This document shows, piece by piece, positions 636 through 34,434 of a stretch of 64,000 bases of DNA. The translations under genes and the position numbers were made by a program. The stretch is from Candidatus Marithrix sp. (lineage in GTDB: Bacteria; Pseudomonadota; Gammaproteobacteria; Beggiatoales; Beggiatoaceae): contig JADGDS010000002.1 in assembly GCA_016744775.1 (NCBI GenBank), forward strand, positions 186,001 to 250,000. The letters are read 5' to 3'. Numbering within the stretch: position 1 is the first letter of the stretch; each line of letters begins with the position of its first letter. The notes under the pieces are model-generated. The model was not told where the DNA came from, searched no databases, and saw only the letters and a program-made list of their open reading frames with translations.

Positions 636-2089
636 TTTGTATCACGATTTTTACCTTGCCATTATATATAGTTGGAATATTCATTGACCAAAAATTTATT
701 AGCCATTCGCATATCCTTGCCATTATGATAGCTATTTTGGGTTTATTAAATATGGCAAAGCCGCAATACAAAGGAAAACGAACAGAAACATTGTGGAGTA
801 CACCATTTATTCTATTTTTAGTCATTAGTGTAATTGGGTTGATTGTATCCCCTTTTGGTATTGCTATATTGGAAAAAGGGTTAATTCAAATTATTGGGAT
901 TACAGTGATGTTAATTATGGTTTTTTCCATAGTTAATGAAATTCGCAAAGAACCGAGGTTTTTTATAACAGCCGCTAAAATTGCCATGATTAGTTTGGGT
1001 ATTTTTGCATCAATAGGAATTGTACAATTTATTCTGTGGAATCTAACTCCATGGAGTTTTCTGGTTAATTTTTCGTTTTTGAACGATCTAGCAGGTGGTA
1101 TTGTTTGGAGAGACACAAGTCATACGGGTGGTATCTATCGTGCGAATTCGTTGGCACCTGAACCATCACATTTTGTAAGATATTTGGGTTTTGGACTGGG
1201 GATCGCTTTTATCCGTGTTGGAATGTTTGGAAATCAATACAAGCAATATATTTCCACAGTGTTTCCATTATGGTCAGCATGGGCTATTATTGTAGGGACC
1301 ATACTATCAGTATCTATATTGGGGTGGGGATTAATGCTAATAATAGCGATAATGCTCTTTTTGTTACTTGGAAAGTTAAGTGTTAGACAACTCATAATAG
1401 GCATTCTTACAATAACAGTCTTAGGAATTTTATTGATATACATAGCTATACAGACTGAAGGAATATTTTTTAAAAAACTACAATCTCTATCGCTTCTTTT
1501 TGTCGATGAATCTGTGGTATTATCAAATAGCATTCATGCTCAAGATCTAAGCGCACTAGTAATCAATTATAACTATATAGTTGCAAAGGAAAATTTTCTT
1601 AGTCAGCCATTATTTGGTGGAGGACTTGGTTCTCACTCATTGGCTGCTGTAGTTTTTCTGCCTAGCTATGTCTATTTATTTAACATTCCAATTCTAAACA
1701 CAGAAGATGCAGCAAGTCTATTGTTGAGACTAATTTCAGAAACTGGGCTACTGGGTTTATGCCTATTTATGGGTGGTATTCTCTGGATAATAATGAGGGC
1801 TAGGCAGGTAATTAAGAAGAAAATGAATGCGGGAGATTTAGATGATGTTATTGTGGTTTCTATTGGTATATTGGCATCTGGTGTTGGAGTATTTTCTCTT
1901 TATTTTGGTAGGACAGGTCATTATTACGATCCAGTATTTTGGGTGTTGATTGCAATGGTAGTTGCTATACCTATGGTCCTGAAGGTAAGAACTGTTAGGA
2001 GGCAGAAGTATTTTATAACAAGGAGGATAATACCCTTTAGAAAGTGGGCAAAAGGAGCAAGGTCTTTTTCCATAGCTAGAAGAATATAA
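623..2089 (+). CDS. Wzy-like O-antigen/exopolysaccharide polymerase
   Basis: A 488-residue integral membrane protein with about 10-12 hydrophobic segments. It probably polymerises or ligates undecaprenyl-linked oligosaccharide repeats at the periplasmic face. Family marks are the NSLAPEPSHFVRYLG segment (the EPSHFA-type motif of Wzy-like proteins), a long soluble stretch near residues 290-340, and GGGLGSHSL followed by LISETGLLGL, the typical conserved end of the large periplasmic loop. Sequence conservation in this class is low, so the exact role (polymerase or ligase) is inferred from topology, motifs and the neighbouring glycosyltransferases and flippase. The basic C-terminal tail (RRQKYFITRR and beyond) is probably cytoplasmic. 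Confidence 0.75.
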   Translation: MRALICITIFTLPLYIVGIFIDQKFISHSHILAIMIAILGLLNMAKPQYKGKRTETLWSTPFILFLVISVIGLIVSPFGIAILEKGLIQIIGITVMLIMVFSIVNEIRKEPRFFITAAKIAMISLGIFASIGIVQFILWNLTPWSFLVNFSFLNDLAGGIVWRDTSHTGGIYRANSLAPEPSHFVRYLGFGLGIAFIRVGMFGNQYKQYISTVFPLWSAWAIIVGTILSVSILGWGLMLIIAIMLFLLLGKLSVRQLIIGILTITVLGILLIYIAIQTEGIFFKKLQSLSLLFVDESVVLSNSIHAQDLSALVINYNYIVAKENFLSQPLFGGGLGSHSLAAVVFLPSYVYLFNIPILNTEDAASLLLRLISETGLLGLCLFMGGILWIIMRARQVIKKKMNAGDLDDVIVVSIGILASGVGVFSLYFGRTGHYYDPVFWVLIAMVVAIPMVLKVRTVRRQKYFITRRIIPFRKWAKGARSFSIARRI

Positions 2090-2114
2090 ACAGCGTGGAT
2101 TTTACTACAAAATA

Positions 2115-3257
2115 ATGAAAATACTTCACATTGTCCCCTACTACATGCCTGCTTATCGTTATGGCGGTCCAATTTGGGCAGTGCATGGCTTGTGTAAAAG
2201 CTTAACACAGTTAGGCCATGAAGTGCATGTATTCACAACCAATGTTGATGGCTCTAACAATTCTGATGTGCCTTTAGGTGTACCAGTTGATATTGATGGA
2301 GTTAAGGTTTGGTATTATCCCTCTCAGCAACTTCGCAGATTGTTTTACTCTCCAAACATGAAAAAAGCGTTAAAACAGTCTATTAATTATTTTGATATTG
2401 TGCATTTACATTCTATTTTTCTCTGGCCTATATTAGTCGGGGCAAGGATTTCTCAAAAAAAACAAGTACCATATTTAATTATGCCACATGGTATGTTAGT
2501 TAAAGATTTAATCAAACGCAAAAGTCGTTGGATAAAATCCTTATGGATAAAGTTATTTGATCAATATACCTTAGAACATGCCAGTGGAATTCATGTCACC
2601 AGCAAGCTTGAAGAAGAGGAATTAAAGCCGTTTGGTTTTAAACTGCCGCCTATTTTTATGATTCCTAATGGAATTGATATACCAGATACAATTAGTAAAA
2701 AAAGAGCTAAAGATAATGAAAACATAATTTTATTTTTAAGTCGTGTTAATTGGAAAAAAGGCTTAGATAGATTAATTGAGGCGATGGCTTATGTGTCTAA
2801 AGGAAGACTCATTATTGCTGGTAATGATGAAGAAGCTTATCAAAAAACCTTGGAGCAAATAGCGATAAAAAATGGAGTGACTAATCGTATTCAATTTATA
2901 GGATCAGTTTATAATCAAGATAAAGAAAAATTATTAAATAGCGCGTCTATGTTAGTCTTACCATCTTATTCTGAAAATTTTGGAATTGTGGTATTGGAAG
3001 CCATGTCTTATGGATGCCCGGTTATTGTGACACCAGAGGTTGGATTAGCAGATGTTGTGGCAAAATATGGAGCTGGCTTGGTTTGCGAAGGTGAGCCTGA
3101 GATTTTAGGGAAAAATATTAATAGGCTATTAGATAACCCAGATTTAGGTGTAGAAATGGGAAAGATTGGACAACGGGTGGTTCAAGAACAATTTAGTTGG
3201 GTGGTGATTGCTCGTCAAATGGAAAGAGTTTATCAAAATCTTTTGAACTGTGATTAG
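2115..3257 (+). CDS. Family 4 glycosyltransferase (GT-B fold)
   Basis: A 380-residue retaining glycosyltransferase. The N-terminal Rossmann domain starts IVPYYMPAYRYGGPI, with the glycine-rich acceptor loop, and is followed by LGHEVHVFTTN. The C-terminal domain has LFLSRVNWKKGLDRLIEA (donor-domain entry), LVLPSYSENFGIVVLEAM with the EX7E-type motif, and GCPVIVTPEVGLADVV. Length and domain order are normal for the family. It follows the polymerase-like gene by 25 bases in the same direction, which suggests one operon. The specific sugar is unknown. No frameshift or truncation is visible. Confidence 0.88.
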   Translation: MKILHIVPYYMPAYRYGGPIWAVHGLCKSLTQLGHEVHVFTTNVDGSNNSDVPLGVPVDIDGVKVWYYPSQQLRRLFYSPNMKKALKQSINYFDIVHLHSIFLWPILVGARISQKKQVPYLIMPHGMLVKDLIKRKSRWIKSLWIKLFDQYTLEHASGIHVTSKLEEEELKPFGFKLPPIFMIPNGIDIPDTISKKRAKDNENIILFLSRVNWKKGLDRLIEAMAYVSKGRLIIAGNDEEAYQKTLEQIAIKNGVTNRIQFIGSVYNQDKEKLLNSASMLVLPSYSENFGIVVLEAMSYGCPVIVTPEVGLADVVAKYGAGLVCEGEPEILGKNINRLLDNPDLGVEMGKIGQRVVQEQFSWVVIARQMERVYQNLLNCD

Positions 3258-3601
3258 ACTTGCTCTTTAATTACAGATTGTTAATAGACTTGTCCCTTAA
3301 TAAGAATTATAATGAAGTCCCTCATCCAATGAAGATGAAAACTCTAAAGCAGAAACAAGCTTGATAAAACAAACAGCTATTGAATAGTTAGTTTAATGAA
3401 AATGAGCTGGTGGTTTGTAAACCAGAGGAGGTTTTGAATTGTTTTCTGATAACTAAGATGGATGTGTTGGTTATGGGCAATTGGTTTATAAGGCGTTCAA
3501 TATAAAAAATTTAAAAATTCGTTAAATTCTTAATTAGTTGTACTGAATTTTTATAAGTAATTTATATGAAATATATTACAATTAATTTAGAATATCTATG
3601 A
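3258..3601. other. Intergenic stretch holding a carbamoyltransferase gene scrap
   Basis: This 344-base gap separates a glycosyltransferase from a flippase. It has no complete gene. A 108-base piece matching the end of a carbamoyltransferase gene lies inside (listed separately). Just after the glycosyltransferase stop there is an imperfect direct repeat: gattagacttgctctttaat and aatagacttgtcccttaata. The last 90 bases are very AT-rich (a taagtaatttatatgaaatatattac tract in part) and probably contain the flippase promoter, but no clear -35/-10 pair can be assigned. Confidence 0.6.
3391..3498 (+). pseudogene. Carbamoyltransferase C-terminal remnant (second copy)
   Basis: This stretch reads on the plus strand almost base for base like the end of the carbamoyltransferase fragment at 19215-19322. 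By eye about nine in ten bases agree. The encoded piece corresponds to FNENE...VVCKPEE...LDCF...TKMDVLVMG.WFIRRS. It has no upstream coding part here and no start codon, so it is a dead scrap. It shows that the carbamoyltransferase gene, or this corner of the locus, was duplicated and then mostly lost. Confidence 0.8.
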
Positions 3602-5083
3602 ATGATGATAATTAAAAGACTATTAAAAAACCAAACCTTCAAAAACGCCTATTTTAGTGTTATAGATGCTGTTTTTCTGCCTTTTGCTATGCTGGTGGCA
3701 ACTCCTTTATTTTTGAAACAATTAGGAGCCGAACAGTATGGGATGTGGATGCTGATTAATTCCATTATTGCATCAATGACCATCTTAAATATTGGTAGCG
3801 TAGATGTTGTTACCAAGTACGTATCTGCCTACAAAAAAAACAATAATACGCAAAATATCCAGAAAGTTTTTAGTACCCTATTTATTCTTCAAATCATATT
3901 AGGCGCAATCATTTCTATTTTAATCATTTGGCTTGCTCCCATTTTGGTCACATCAGGAATATTTAAAGTCGAACTCAAATCTCAACCACTTTTTGCTCAA
4001 TCTCTTATATTTGGTGGATTTTTGTTCGTTATTAAGATGATAGAACAAGTCATGATTGGCTTTTTAAGAGGCCAAGAAAGATACGATTTTTCTTCAATCA
4101 TGTCAATTTTCTCAAAATCCATACTTATTATCACCCAAATAGTTGTTGTTATTAACGATGGTAATTTAAGTGATCTTTTTTTATACAGTTTTATTGTATT
4201 ATCACTCATTTTAGGTATTGAAATAATAGGGTTAAAACTTTTATATTTAGAAGCACAATTTTTAACGGGCTTTAGTATAAACACATTGATAGAATTGCTG
4301 AACTTTAGTGGTTGGGCATGGTTACTTTCTCTTGCTTTACTTTTTACCTCACAAATAGATAGGTGGTTAATTGGAGCATTGGTAGGGATGGAAATGTTAG
4401 CCTATTACTCCATTGCATTGTTGATTTTTAATCAAATACATGCTATTATTGCTTCAAGCCTTAGCTGGATTTTTCCAAAAGTATCAAAAACGGGTATCAA
4501 TAAAGAAACAATGCGGTTACTTTATAATGCTCAAAGCTATGCTGTTATATTAAGTTCGTTAGTCAGTTTATTTTTATTATATTTTAACGAAATATTTTTA
4601 TTTTGGCTGGGAGAAGAAAATTATCAATTAATTGCAAATTACCTAAAATATTTCCTAATTTTACAACCCATTTATGCTCTTTCTATTGTGCCTTATTATT
4701 TTATAAATGGATTAGGATTGATTAAGTATAATTTTTTTAATGCAGCCATTAATGGCCTATTAAAATTATTTTTCATGTTTTTCTTATTCAAGAGTTTAGG
4801 AATGCTAGGAATAATGATTGGAGTAGGCATAAGTATCATTATTTTATCCGGTTATGCCTTGTGGATTGCCAAAACCAAAATGGGTATAATCGAATTGCCA
4901 ATCATTAAATTAATGAGCCCGGTTATTTTATATGCCATCATTGGTTTTTATCAAATAAGTTATGAATTAAATGGTATAATTTTTAGTGTGGTTATTGTTT
5001 TATTATTTATTATTTATTACAAAAACTATTTAAACGGATATATGAGTTTTGTTGGACAATGGCTTAAACCAAAATTGAAGTGA
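3602..5083 (+). CDS. Oligosaccharide flippase (Wzx-like, MOP superfamily)
   Basis: A 493-residue polytopic membrane protein, with 12-14 predicted hydrophobic segments, of the polysaccharide-biosynthesis/MOP exporter superfamily. It would flip lipid-linked oligosaccharide to the periplasm before polymerisation. The N-terminus is typical: FLPFAMLVATPLFLKQLGAE then YGMWMLINSIIASM. A polar break at YVSAYKKNNNTQN and the GLGLIKYNFFNAAINGLLK segment late in the protein also fit. It starts at ATG-ATG after a 344-base gap, so it likely has its own promoter. A second, different flippase lies near 29000 on the other strand; the two are not close paralogues. Confidence 0.82.
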   Translation: MMIIKRLLKNQTFKNAYFSVIDAVFLPFAMLVATPLFLKQLGAEQYGMWMLINSIIASMTILNIGSVDVVTKYVSAYKKNNNTQNIQKVFSTLFILQIILGAIISILIIWLAPILVTSGIFKVELKSQPLFAQSLIFGGFLFVIKMIEQVMIGFLRGQERYDFSSIMSIFSKSILIITQIVVVINDGNLSDLFLYSFIVLSLILGIEIIGLKLLYLEAQFLTGFSINTLIELLNFSGWAWLLSLALLFTSQIDRWLIGALVGMEMLAYYSIALLIFNQIHAIIASSLSWIFPKVSKTGINKETMRLLYNAQSYAVILSSLVSLFLLYFNEIFLFWLGEENYQLIANYLKYFLILQPIYALSIVPYYFINGLGLIKYNFFNAAINGLLKLFFMFFLFKSLGMLGIMIGVGISIIILSGYALWIAKTKMGIIELPIIKLMSPVILYAIIGFYQISYELNGIIFSVVIVLLFIIYYKNYLNGYMSFVGQWLKPKLK

Positions 5084-31470: not shown

Positions 31471-32163
31471 ATGTTACCTAGAGAATTAACTAGCCAAATT
31501 TTGGCACATTTTGATTCAGCAGATTTAGTATTTTTGCTTGGCACACGGCAAACTGGTAAAACTACACTGACTCATTTAGTTGCAAATGATTCTTCATTTT
31601 TAAATGATAAAATTTGGTATTTTGATATTGAAGATAAACAATATCGAGCTTTGTTTAATACTGCAACAATTTCCAGTCTAAAGCAAATTCTGCCTCTGGA
31701 AGGAATTGATTATAAGCAGCGTCAATTACTAATTTTTGATGAAATTCAATTATTAGATGATCCTTCTAATCTACTGAAATTATTACATGATCATTTTCCT
31801 GCTTTAAAGATTATTGCTACAGGTAGTTCTTCTTTACATTTAAGAAAATATTTAGCAATTAATGCAGGTAGCCAATTTAATTTATCATCAGCGCGTGAAA
31901 CCATCGGTATTTCTTCTGCTACTTTATCTAAATATCTAAATATATTAGAAGAAACTTTTATTATTGCTGAACTTCCACCATTTTTATTTTTGCAAAACTT
32001 TAATTCACTTGATCTTCGTAGAGATGCCGGTGCGTTGTATGAAACTTATGTATTTAATACATTAAATTGGAGCAAAAATATTACTAGCAGTCTCTATTTT
32101 TATAAAAGTAGTGGCAAGAAAACCCCTTTGTCTTTAGCAGAGGGGATGAATTGCCACGCCTAA
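31471..32163 (+). pseudogene. AAA/DUF4143 ATPase, N-terminal part, cut by an IscB element
   Basis: Encodes VFLLGTRQTGKTTLTHLV (Walker A) and QLLIFDEIQLLDD (Walker B) of a DUF4143-type AAA ATPase. ATGSSSLHLRKYLA jumps directly to NAGSQFNLSSARETIGIS: compared with the related gene at 40151 about 100 residues are absent, so the gene was already internally deleted. The gene's own sequence ends at about 32118 (SSGK). The last 14 residues of the open frame are read from the insertion element. The C-terminal nuclease piece resumes in the matching frame at 33889. These proteins are common in accessory DNA, with unclear function. Confidence 0.88.
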
Positions 32164-32172
32164 CCTTGCTCT

Positions 32173-32427
32173 TCAATCTATTTCCTTACGGTTTCGATGG
32201 AAGCATTCCCGATAGAGCTTCCAGATTCCCACAGTTGTTTCTTGTTTTAGTTTTCTAACAATCTGCAAAGGTGAAATTTTAGGTACGCTTGTTACCATCA
32301 AATGAAGATGATCCTTATCAACTTCCATTTCCTGAATATCAAAGTCAGATTTTTTTGATATTTCAAAAATAATATGATATATGAGCAAGAATTTTGAATG
32401 ATTTAGTGTCTTATAATCATTACTCAT
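32173..32427 (-). pseudogene. tnpA: TnpA (Y1/HUH transposase) remnant
   Basis: Eighty-four residues of an IS200/IS605 TnpA. NHSKFLLIYHIIF is the normal start, and EVDKDHLHLMV carries the HUH metal motif as His-Leu-His. SPLQIVRKLKQ is also family-typical. Between HIIF and EISKKSDF about 20 residues of the usual sequence are missing, and the protein ends soon after YRECFHRN. The C-terminal helix with the catalytic Tyr is therefore absent. It starts four bases before the iscB stop (overlap). It cannot be an active transposase by itself. Confidence 0.85.
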
Positions 32428-33608
32428 TCGTAAACCAAGCCTTTTTGATGGAACACAACTTCAATTTTCTTCATAGATTTCACAATGGCGTTTACACCAT
32501 CACTCATCTTTAAATAACCCCCTTTGTTTTGTATGCCCACTGCATGATATTGTTTGCCTTCAAATTTAACTAAATCTTTTGGTTGAATATTGTATCTTTG
32601 TCGCCGAATAGCAGGAGCGTATCCATTTCGATTCTTCTGCAAACAACGGTTATTTTTTCGTTTAAAGCCGATTGTTCTTTCTTCAGTTCTTTTCTGATTA
32701 AATCCACCTGCAATAACAAAAGCATCATTTGCATGTGTTTTCACAATATTGTGCTTGTAGCGGTTTGCCTTGGTGACATAGCCGAATGTTTCTACAGCAT
32801 CAGGGTAAATACTTAATAATCGTTGTCTGATGATATTCATTGTTGTGGCTGATCTGAGACTTTTGTGGTGCTTGATCGTTAGCTTTAGCTTGCCAGCATG
32901 TAATGCTTTGTGATGTTTCTGGCAAAGCGTGATAAGATTATTAGGTGCATCAGAACCGCCTTGTGAACGATATTTGATATGATGGATTTCTAATTTGTTG
33001 CTACAACCCTTCTTTTTGCTTTGGCACTGATGGCTATCCCGACTTAAAATATAGGCTTTCGTGTTTTCAAAACCATATTGAACACCTTTTTGATATTGTT
33101 TGTTTCTTATCTCTGGATTCTTCATCTTTGCCATATCGAATAAACCTGTTTCTAAAACAAGCTTTGTAATAGGTAGCAAGGATTTAAACTGGTTAATCAT
33201 CCTTGTGTGAGCATCTACAATCCATTGGACAGAGGGTGCTAAACGTCCTTTTATGGTACTTGCTGAACGGTTATTAAAACGTGGCTTTCGGTATCTAAGC
33301 CTGTTTCTTTTCTGCCTTCTGTACATGCGTCTTGTATCCATTTTTTCAGAGATGTCATTACGCATTTTGGCAACTGCTGAAAACACCTCCTTGGTTTCTG
33401 ACACAACAGATAACCCTACCTCCGAATGACCTGTATCAACACCCAAGGTCAAATCCTGCTTATAGCCTGTTGAGCCATACTTAAGCTGGATAGTGAATGG
33501 ATTACGGCGAACGACCTTAGCCTTGCCGCTTTTAAGCAATAGTCTTGCTTTTCTTGGAGTACACGGCATCAACGCTTCGCCATGCTGATTCATTACAAAA
33601 ACTTCCAT
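32424..33608 (-). CDS. iscB: IscB RNA-guided nuclease
   Basis: A 394-residue IscB, the Cas9-ancestor family that cuts DNA guided by an omega-RNA. The N-terminal PLMP domain shows EALMPCTPRKARLLL. RuvC-I LGVDTGHSEVG has Asp58. The bridge helix is RRMYRRQKRNRLRYR (about 93-107). RuvC-II LVLETGLFD has Glu153. The HNH domain has a CQ..K.GC zinc-type pair, His209-His210, Asn223-Asn224 and His232-His233. RuvC-III is THANDAFVIAG with His292 and Asp295. Every catalytic position is present and the frame is intact. Length is typical of compact IscB. The omega-RNA is expected just upstream. Activity on DNA is inferred from these residues. Confidence 0.93.
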   Translation of the reverse strand: MEVFVMNQHGEALMPCTPRKARLLLKSGKAKVVRRNPFTIQLKYGSTGYKQDLTLGVDTGHSEVGLSVVSETKEVFSAVAKMRNDISEKMDTRRMYRRQKRNRLRYRKPRFNNRSASTIKGRLAPSVQWIVDAHTRMINQFKSLLPITKLVLETGLFDMAKMKNPEIRNKQYQKGVQYGFENTKAYILSRDSHQCQSKKKGCSNKLEIHHIKYRSQGGSDAPNNLITLCQKHHKALHAGKLKLTIKHHKSLRSATTMNIIRQRLLSIYPDAVETFGYVTKANRYKHNIVKTHANDAFVIAGGFNQKRTEERTIGFKRKNNRCLQKNRNGYAPAIRRQRYNIQPKDLVKFEGKQYHAVGIQNKGGYLKMSDGVNAIVKSMKKIEVVFHQKGLVYE

Positions 33609-33886
33609 TTTAAAACCTTTATGTTAATCGTTAAAATTGAACTATTCCTCTTTCGAGGTAGATTCCCATCGGCAATGTTGTAAAAGCTTGTCAGTCCAAG
33701 CACACCGACCAGTTGAGGTCTTTTAATACTTGGAGACAGAGCCGTAGACTTGGGAGGCATCCACGGGTGTCATAACTTAAACAATGTAGTGAGTTAACAC
33801 TTAGCCTAATCACCTATTCAGTCCTAAGACCTATCTCGAATCTCACGATTCAAGCCCCTGTGTCTTTAGCTCAGGGGTAGTTGACA
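33609..33886 (-). ncRNA. IscB omega-RNA (HEARO-type) region
   Basis: Upstream of iscB, on the same strand, about 275 bases have no reading frame but strong structure. In transcript order there is CCCCTG/CAGGGG next to the element end, GAATC/GATTC around a gtga loop (33838-33851), GCTTG/CAAGC (33686-33701), and CCTC/GAGG closed by a GAAA tetraloop (33647-33658). Position, length and hairpins agree with omega-RNA, whose guide is at the 5' end and is taken from the flanking DNA. The guide here would be about 16 bases ending at the junction, beginning cttttagattgtgttc on the minus strand. Exact ends are estimates. Confidence 0.75.
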
Positions 33887-33888
33887 GA

Positions 33889-34107
33889 ACACAATCTAAA
33901 AGTGAAATTGATTTCATATTAGTAAAAGACGCAAATTATCATTTAATAGAAGTAAAATCGGGCAAATATAAACAAATTCCATGCGCTATGATCGAATTTG
34001 AAAAAAAATATACTTCACAATTAACAATTGTAAGTAAACGACTCATAAATCAATCAGTATATTTACAAAAATCAGGGGTAGAATTTTTACCGGCATATTT
34101 ACTTTGA
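33889..34107 (+). pseudogene. AAA/DUF4143 ATPase, C-terminal nuclease part
   Basis: After the element the frame resumes as TQSKSEIDFILVKDANYHLI then EVKSGKYK, the PD-(D/E)XK-like motif (Asp, then Glu-x-Lys) that ends DUF4143 ATPases. It finishes VEFLPAYLL and a TGA. Joining 32118 to 33889 restores one continuous frame (SSGK-TQSK). It therefore is the missing half of the ATPase gene at 31471. It has no start codon of its own. Confidence 0.85.
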
Positions 34108-34116
34108 GTAATTAAG

Positions 34117-34434
34117 ACACATTATAAAAATTTTTTAGCGATGTTTCCAATCTCTGGATAATTCTGAATTGCTGTTTCAATTTTTTTCTTTTGTAATATA
34201 TTTTTCTAGCAGCCTACAATCAGATTTTTTATAATTTGGAATACGATCAGGATGATCAAGTGCCTTTTCGTATTCTTTACATTTTTTATCACTTTTCAAA
34301 TTTAAATTTTTAATTTTTCCGGGCTTGCGGTAAACTGTCTTTAAAAGCCGAATATAATTTTCTTCTGTACAGCCTTCAACAATAAAATAATAGACAGCCT
34401 TACTTTTCCTTGGTTTTCTGGTTTTCCTTGTCAT
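34117..34434 (-). pseudogene. Shortened RloB-like partner protein
   Basis: The start KAVYYFIVEGCTEENYIRLL is the RloB-like (OLD-type, Toprim-like) beginning, with the metal-binding Glu in VEGxTE. The remainder YKKSDCRLLEKYI resembles the family's end. About 90-100 central residues, including the DxD metal motif, are absent, so the nuclease site is lost. After 85 residues a TGA occurs in a run of seven A. A one-base change there would give KKIETAIQNYPEIGNIAKKFL and a stop near 34117. The gene overlaps the ATPase stop by one base (TAATG), the normal RloA-RloB coupling. Likely non-functional. Confidence 0.7.

Follow-up and report, generated by a model that had tools for sequence, protein, structure and literature searches.

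A flank-guided IscB omega-RNA system, aimed at the uninterrupted allele of the DUF4143 ATPase gene in which it sits, is the reading that we prefer for the element described here, with a probability of about 80%. The element lies within a window of 64,000 nucleotides (the whole stretch of DNA analysed) from a Candidatus Marithrix genome, of which the full assembly (G000; 3.09 Mb, 11 contigs) was surveyed for further copies. This kind of system is already known (OMEGA/IscB, with IS200/IS605-type ends), the main IscB sources reportedly being Altae-Tran 2021 and Meers 2023, and the locus is a well-preserved new example of it. The coordinates of its features are collected in Table 1.

Table 1. Features of the IscB element and of the gene that it interrupts.
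Feature	Position	Strand	Remarks
Whole IscB element	32104..33885	-	1782 bp; IS200/IS605-type ends; sits in DUF4143 ATPase gene; no target duplication
5' subterminal hairpin CCCCTGAGCTAAAGACACAGGGG	33855..33877	-	doubles as first omega-RNA hairpin
3' subterminal hairpin CCCCTCTGCTAAAGACAAAGGGG	32123..32145	-	same motif as 5' end
omega-RNA scaffold (HEARO, RF02033)	33658..33885	-	cmscan; covariation in 7 sequences (copies and relatives)
CCTCGAAAGAGG hairpin between omega-RNA core and iscB	33647..33658	-	from sequence; kept in other copies
iscB	32424..33608	-	394 aa; RRXRR (PF14239) and HNH (PF01844)
tnpA remnant (Y1 transposase)	32173..32427	-	84 aa; overlaps iscB end; Y1_Tnp positions 28-87 of 121 only
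DUF4143 ATPase gene, 5' part	31471..32103	+	Pfam AAA_14 and DUF4143; alignment to L060-L062
DUF4143 ATPase gene, 3' part	33886..34107	+	alignment to L060-L062
Predicted guide 5'-TTTTAGATTGTGTTCT-3'	33886..33901	-	right half of DUF4143 gene; may extend further 5'
Putative TAM ATAAA (TTTAT on +)	32099..32103	-	flank at element 3' end

Boundaries and copies of the element

Five HEARO copies are assembled in the genome, and more element ends are found at the ends of contigs C1, C3, C6 and C9, where the assembly breaks inside element copies; counted by 5' ends, the copy number is at least seven. All of these 5' ends open with GTCAACTACCCC, whereas the bases upstream differ in every copy, so that the element must begin exactly at 33885. 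At the opposite side, the intact 3' ends read CTTGCCAC...TTTT followed by ATAAA in six out of six cases, namely the window copy, the copy at C9:380.7k, those at the starts of C6 and C9, and two copies from a Thiotrichaceae MAG (L030 and L031), whose IscB is 79% identical. The other assembled copies, with truncated or altered 3' ends, were left unscored for the 3' flank.

Uninterrupted DUF4143 alleles were found in three relatives (L060, L061 and L062), and these align without gaps over the 32103|33886 junction at 79–80% identity. Together with the common 5' end, this defines the element as 32104–33885 without target duplication, and rejoining the flanks restores the reading frame (LYFYRTQSKSEIDFIL). 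The ends show the traits of the IS200/IS605 type, with hairpins at both ends, a fixed short motif (TTTAT on the plus strand at the left end) and no duplicated target, and the subterminal hairpin motif occurs 10 times in the genome compared to 0 for a control pattern.

Two element copies lie in tandem at locus L008 (positions 1487-3613; C9:321286-323415 of G000), the second of which starts inside the first copy's tnpA remnant and is cut off at about iscB codon 122. With regard to the interrupted gene, the insertion aside, about 115 and 23 codons are missing in frame with respect to L060; given these missing codons it may be decaying anyway, which counts against our preferred explanation. Only the two ends of the DUF4143 gene are kept in the genus-mate G001.

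The omega-RNA scaffold and its fold

The original prediction placed an omega-RNA upstream of iscB and named comparison with a covariance model as one way to check it. This comparison upholds it: cmscan against Rfam gave a HEARO match over the full model (1-211; 33885→33658 on the minus strand) with 123.8 bits and E = 7e-26, above the gathering score of 83 bits. Apart from a tRNA, no other Rfam family was found in the window. The RNA lies directly upstream of iscB and on the same strand, its end at 33658 being 50 bases from the iscB start at 33608, and its minimum free energy alone is 2.76 sd better than that of shuffles.

With the Rfam pairing applied to seven sequences (copies and relatives), 88% of the cells were paired, compared to 29–41% with slid partners, and eight pairs were changed on both sides, a count reached in 1 of 500 shuffles. 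In the strongest helix (33695-33703/33726-33734), both partners of five pairs have changed among the relatives, and compensatory changes with respect to the window copy are seen in it both in copy C3 and in the MAG copies. On the other side of the balance, the window copy carries a private A-C mismatch at 33785/33677, a pair that is G-C in the other six sequences.

Of the four hairpins proposed for this region, all of the words are present in the sequence (CCCCTG at 33855 with CAGGGG at 33872, GAATC at 33838 with GATTC at 33847, GCTTG at 33686 with CAAGC at 33697, and CCTC at 33647 with GAGG at 33655), but they fared differently as structures. CCCCTG/CAGGGG is real and is the same as the transposon-end hairpin, and GAATC/GATTC is supported by the minimum free energy fold. 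GCTTG/CAAGC conflicts with the conserved covarying fold and was rejected, as 33686 pairs with 33776 and the helix between 33726–33734 and 33695–33703 excludes it. The CCTC-GAAA-GAGG hairpin is present, although it overlaps the HEARO model at 33658 only, the rest lying 3' of the model.

The identity of the first hairpin with that of the element 3' end might suggest that the structured RNA is a mere transposon-end signal or an iscB leader, with the flank unused as guide. We hold this to be highly improbable, given the covariation in helices distant from the end (33695-33734), the full-length family match and the published function of the HEARO family as guide RNA (PMC9755519).

Guide, TAM and targets

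As judged from the sequence, the guide position of the omega-RNA would be filled by the DNA flanking the element 5' end. A guide from this flank had been predicted and is borne out, but the sequence first given for it was off by one base: as the element begins at 33885, the base adjacent to the scaffold is T33886, and the 16 nt, a length taken by analogy with known IscB systems, run 33901→33886. The ATAAA that directly follows the element 3' end in all six intact ends, two of them from another genome, would be the TAM, supplied by the opposite flank and placed 3' of the target. ATAAA is the TAM of KraIscB-1, and it is present in two of the three empty alleles of the relatives. The rejoined empty site reads guide+ATAAA, whereas the occupied site reads guide+GTCAA.

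That the RNP would target the empty-site form of the DUF4143 gene, as first proposed, agrees with these data, the guide matching only that gene and abutting ATAAA in the rejoined site. In the proposed genome search for guide targets, the assembly gave the source as the only exact guide match and contained no exact guide+TAM site. The idea of further genomic targets was discarded, as near matches were about as common as for a reversed control: 131 matches at up to three mismatches vs 106, only the source being exact; near guide+TAM sites numbered 9 vs 8 for the reversed control, and those of the guide of a sibling copy 8 vs 8.

A flank-derived guide could in principle serve in defence, aimed at phages or invading elements and not at the empty site, and IscB is indeed a relative of Cas9. 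No feature of the locus points there specifically, no exact guide+TAM match was found in 2.9 million viral contigs, the guide consists of ordinary DUF4143 coding sequence, and the flank is different in each copy, all of which leaves this idea with a negligible probability. The empty alleles of the relatives differ from the guide by 4, 4 and 5 mismatches out of 16 (counting the TAM-proximal base), reading as TTTTAGACTGGGTTCG or TTTTTGACTGGGTTCG. If the effective guide is about 13 nt long, the length reported for other IscBs (PMC13180657), these alleles would probably be poor targets. Read in this way, the specificity of the predicted guide is for the host lineage's own DUF4143 allele.

The organization described above resembles that of the OMEGA IscB/HEARO systems (OgeuIscB, MG35-1, KraIscB-1), with an RRXRR and HNH nuclease, a HEARO RNA directly 5' of its gene and, as predicted here from sequence, a 5' flank guide and a short 3' TAM. 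OgeuIscB is longer (496 aa compared to 394 aa), with no functional difference shown. ISDra2, an IS200/IS605 element with TnpB, shares with our element the type of ends, the flank guide and the donor-joint targeting model (PMC8612924). It differs in having TnpB where IscB is found here and in carrying its TAM 5' of the target, the putative TAM of our element being 3' of it; moreover, in our element the guide is at the RNA 5' end and tnpA is broken.

An intact nuclease gene and a broken transposase gene

The IscB protein scores 199.7 bits against RRXRR (PF14239) and 32.5 bits against HNH (PF01844), and matches solved IscB structures in the PDB with E 1e-40. The catalytic motifs of the RuvC and HNH domains are present (GVDTG at 56, LVLETG at 150, HH at 209-210 and THANDAF at 291), as is a PLMP-type motif, LMPCTP, at residue 13. 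Four genome copies have the gene as an open frame of 394 aa, with pairwise dN/dS values of 0.13–0.19 (comparisons with the MAG copies being left out because of saturated dS), and it is thus intact and under purifying selection.

In contrast, tnpA shows an internal deletion and a frameshift near the C-end, and in its C-terminal frame a TAG stands for the catalytic Tyr codon; another frame reads IETVRK*IEEQG* vs IETVRKYIEEQG* in sibling copies. With only positions 28-87 of 121 of the Y1_Tnp profile left and the Tyr codon region frameshifted, the remnant does not encode a functional Y1 transposase (HUH motif and catalytic Tyr), so the element is a derivative deficient in tnpA which, unlike an autonomous IS, cannot excise itself. 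Every copy with an assembled 3' side has a deleted or broken tnpA, and both MAG copies carry an identical near-complete deletion at different sites, which is consistent with mobilization in trans once the deletion had occurred, or with repeated deletion between short repeats. No intact cognate tnpA was found among the assembled sequences of the genome, which, like the broken tnpA of the element itself, counts against our preferred reading. Contigs C6 and C9 open with the tail of a tnpA in which the Tyr codon is preserved, and the assembly gaps may thus conceal an autonomous copy. Two full-length Y1 transposases of the genome (L023 and L024), considered as movers in trans, were set aside for their absence of DNA similarity to the tnpA remnant, although they may still serve this function.

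Predicted transcription of the guide

The guide transcript must start outside the element and run antisense to DUF4143, a requirement that weighs against our reading. Two minus-strand ORFs to the right point at the element (35654→34434, an AAA ATPase, and 34434→34177, weakly RloB-like), and promoter-like words are found on this strand; neither observation is proof of transcription. As evidence of read-through, the orientation of the upstream gene, co-oriented in 27 of 31 loci (p 3e-5, in a test made in several versions), was rejected, since the downstream gene is also co-oriented (15/19, p 0.02) and the bias is therefore not specific to the guide side. The RloB-like match of the ORF at 34177-34434 (minus strand) reaches 15.3 bits, below the cut-off, and this ORF adjoins the AAA_21 ATPase gene; the two are possibly a truncated defence-type pair.

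The need for an outside promoter, the broken tnpA, the single private scaffold mismatch and the truncation of other copies (the second L008 copy stops at about iscB codon 122) would also be expected of a recently silenced relic, that is, a copy of the same architecture, inactive or untranscribed, that looks intact because it is young. We consider this unlikely, as iscB is open with all its catalytic motifs, four open copies have dN/dS well below 1, and, the mismatch apart, the scaffold is intact over the full length of the model.

Discussion

In the standard model for nucleases of this kind, proposed for TnpB (PMC8612924), flank sequence guides the nuclease to the allele that lacks the transposon, and the element is restored when the break is repaired from an occupied copy; a related gene-drive effect has been demonstrated on plasmids (PMC11870625). 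For the flank-guided IscB system, we infer transcription, RNP formation, cleavage and repair along similar lines. A minus-strand transcript from the right flank would carry, 5' of the HEARO scaffold, about 16 nt of DUF4143 sequence (33901→33886), and IscB would bind this omega-RNA and cut DNA in which the guide is followed by ATAAA. Such a sequence would exist in sites free of the element and nowhere else, an occupied site being protected because the guide there precedes GTCAA. An empty allele to be cut could arise after excision in trans, or be present on a sister or incoming chromosome, and the occupied copy would act as repair template, so that the element would spread to the DUF4143 site or stay at it.

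The original prediction added that targeting would help keep the element in place. Keeping in place usually means that the copy is restored after excision by TnpA and, as stated, the claim is not supported, the self-excision step being missing with tnpA broken. With tnpA dead, the element might be retained after excision by a transposase acting in trans, or it might home into empty alleles with no excision at all. In all assembled full-length copies and in both Thiotrichaceae MAG copies tnpA is deleted or broken and iscB open, from which a bolder view can be drawn, that transposase-less IscB elements persist and become fixed by RNA-guided homing alone, with selection keeping the nuclease while tnpA decays repeatedly. 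We put this forward as a tentative and rather doubtful proposal.

HEARO RNA has multiplied greatly in three genomes of the same class (G157, G272 and G369; family f116), with 114, 69 and 37 matches respectively, whereas RRXRR (IscB) stretches number only 5, 4 and 4, several of them fragments. No iscB-like ORF was found downstream of HEARO in seven screened f116 loci (L115-L119, L124 and L125) with a crude ORF filter. The picture is one of apparent swarms of omega-RNA-only elements, with an IscB perhaps shared in trans.

The locus represents a fully worked natural IscB case, with exact ends, a predicted guide, a putative TAM and relatives that carry the uninterrupted allele, and from it a single sharp prediction can be drawn, that guide+ATAAA would be cut and guide+GTCAA spared. 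The persistence, in the assembled copies, of an open iscB next to a decaying tnpA bears on whether such nucleases are selected for beyond aiding their own transposase.
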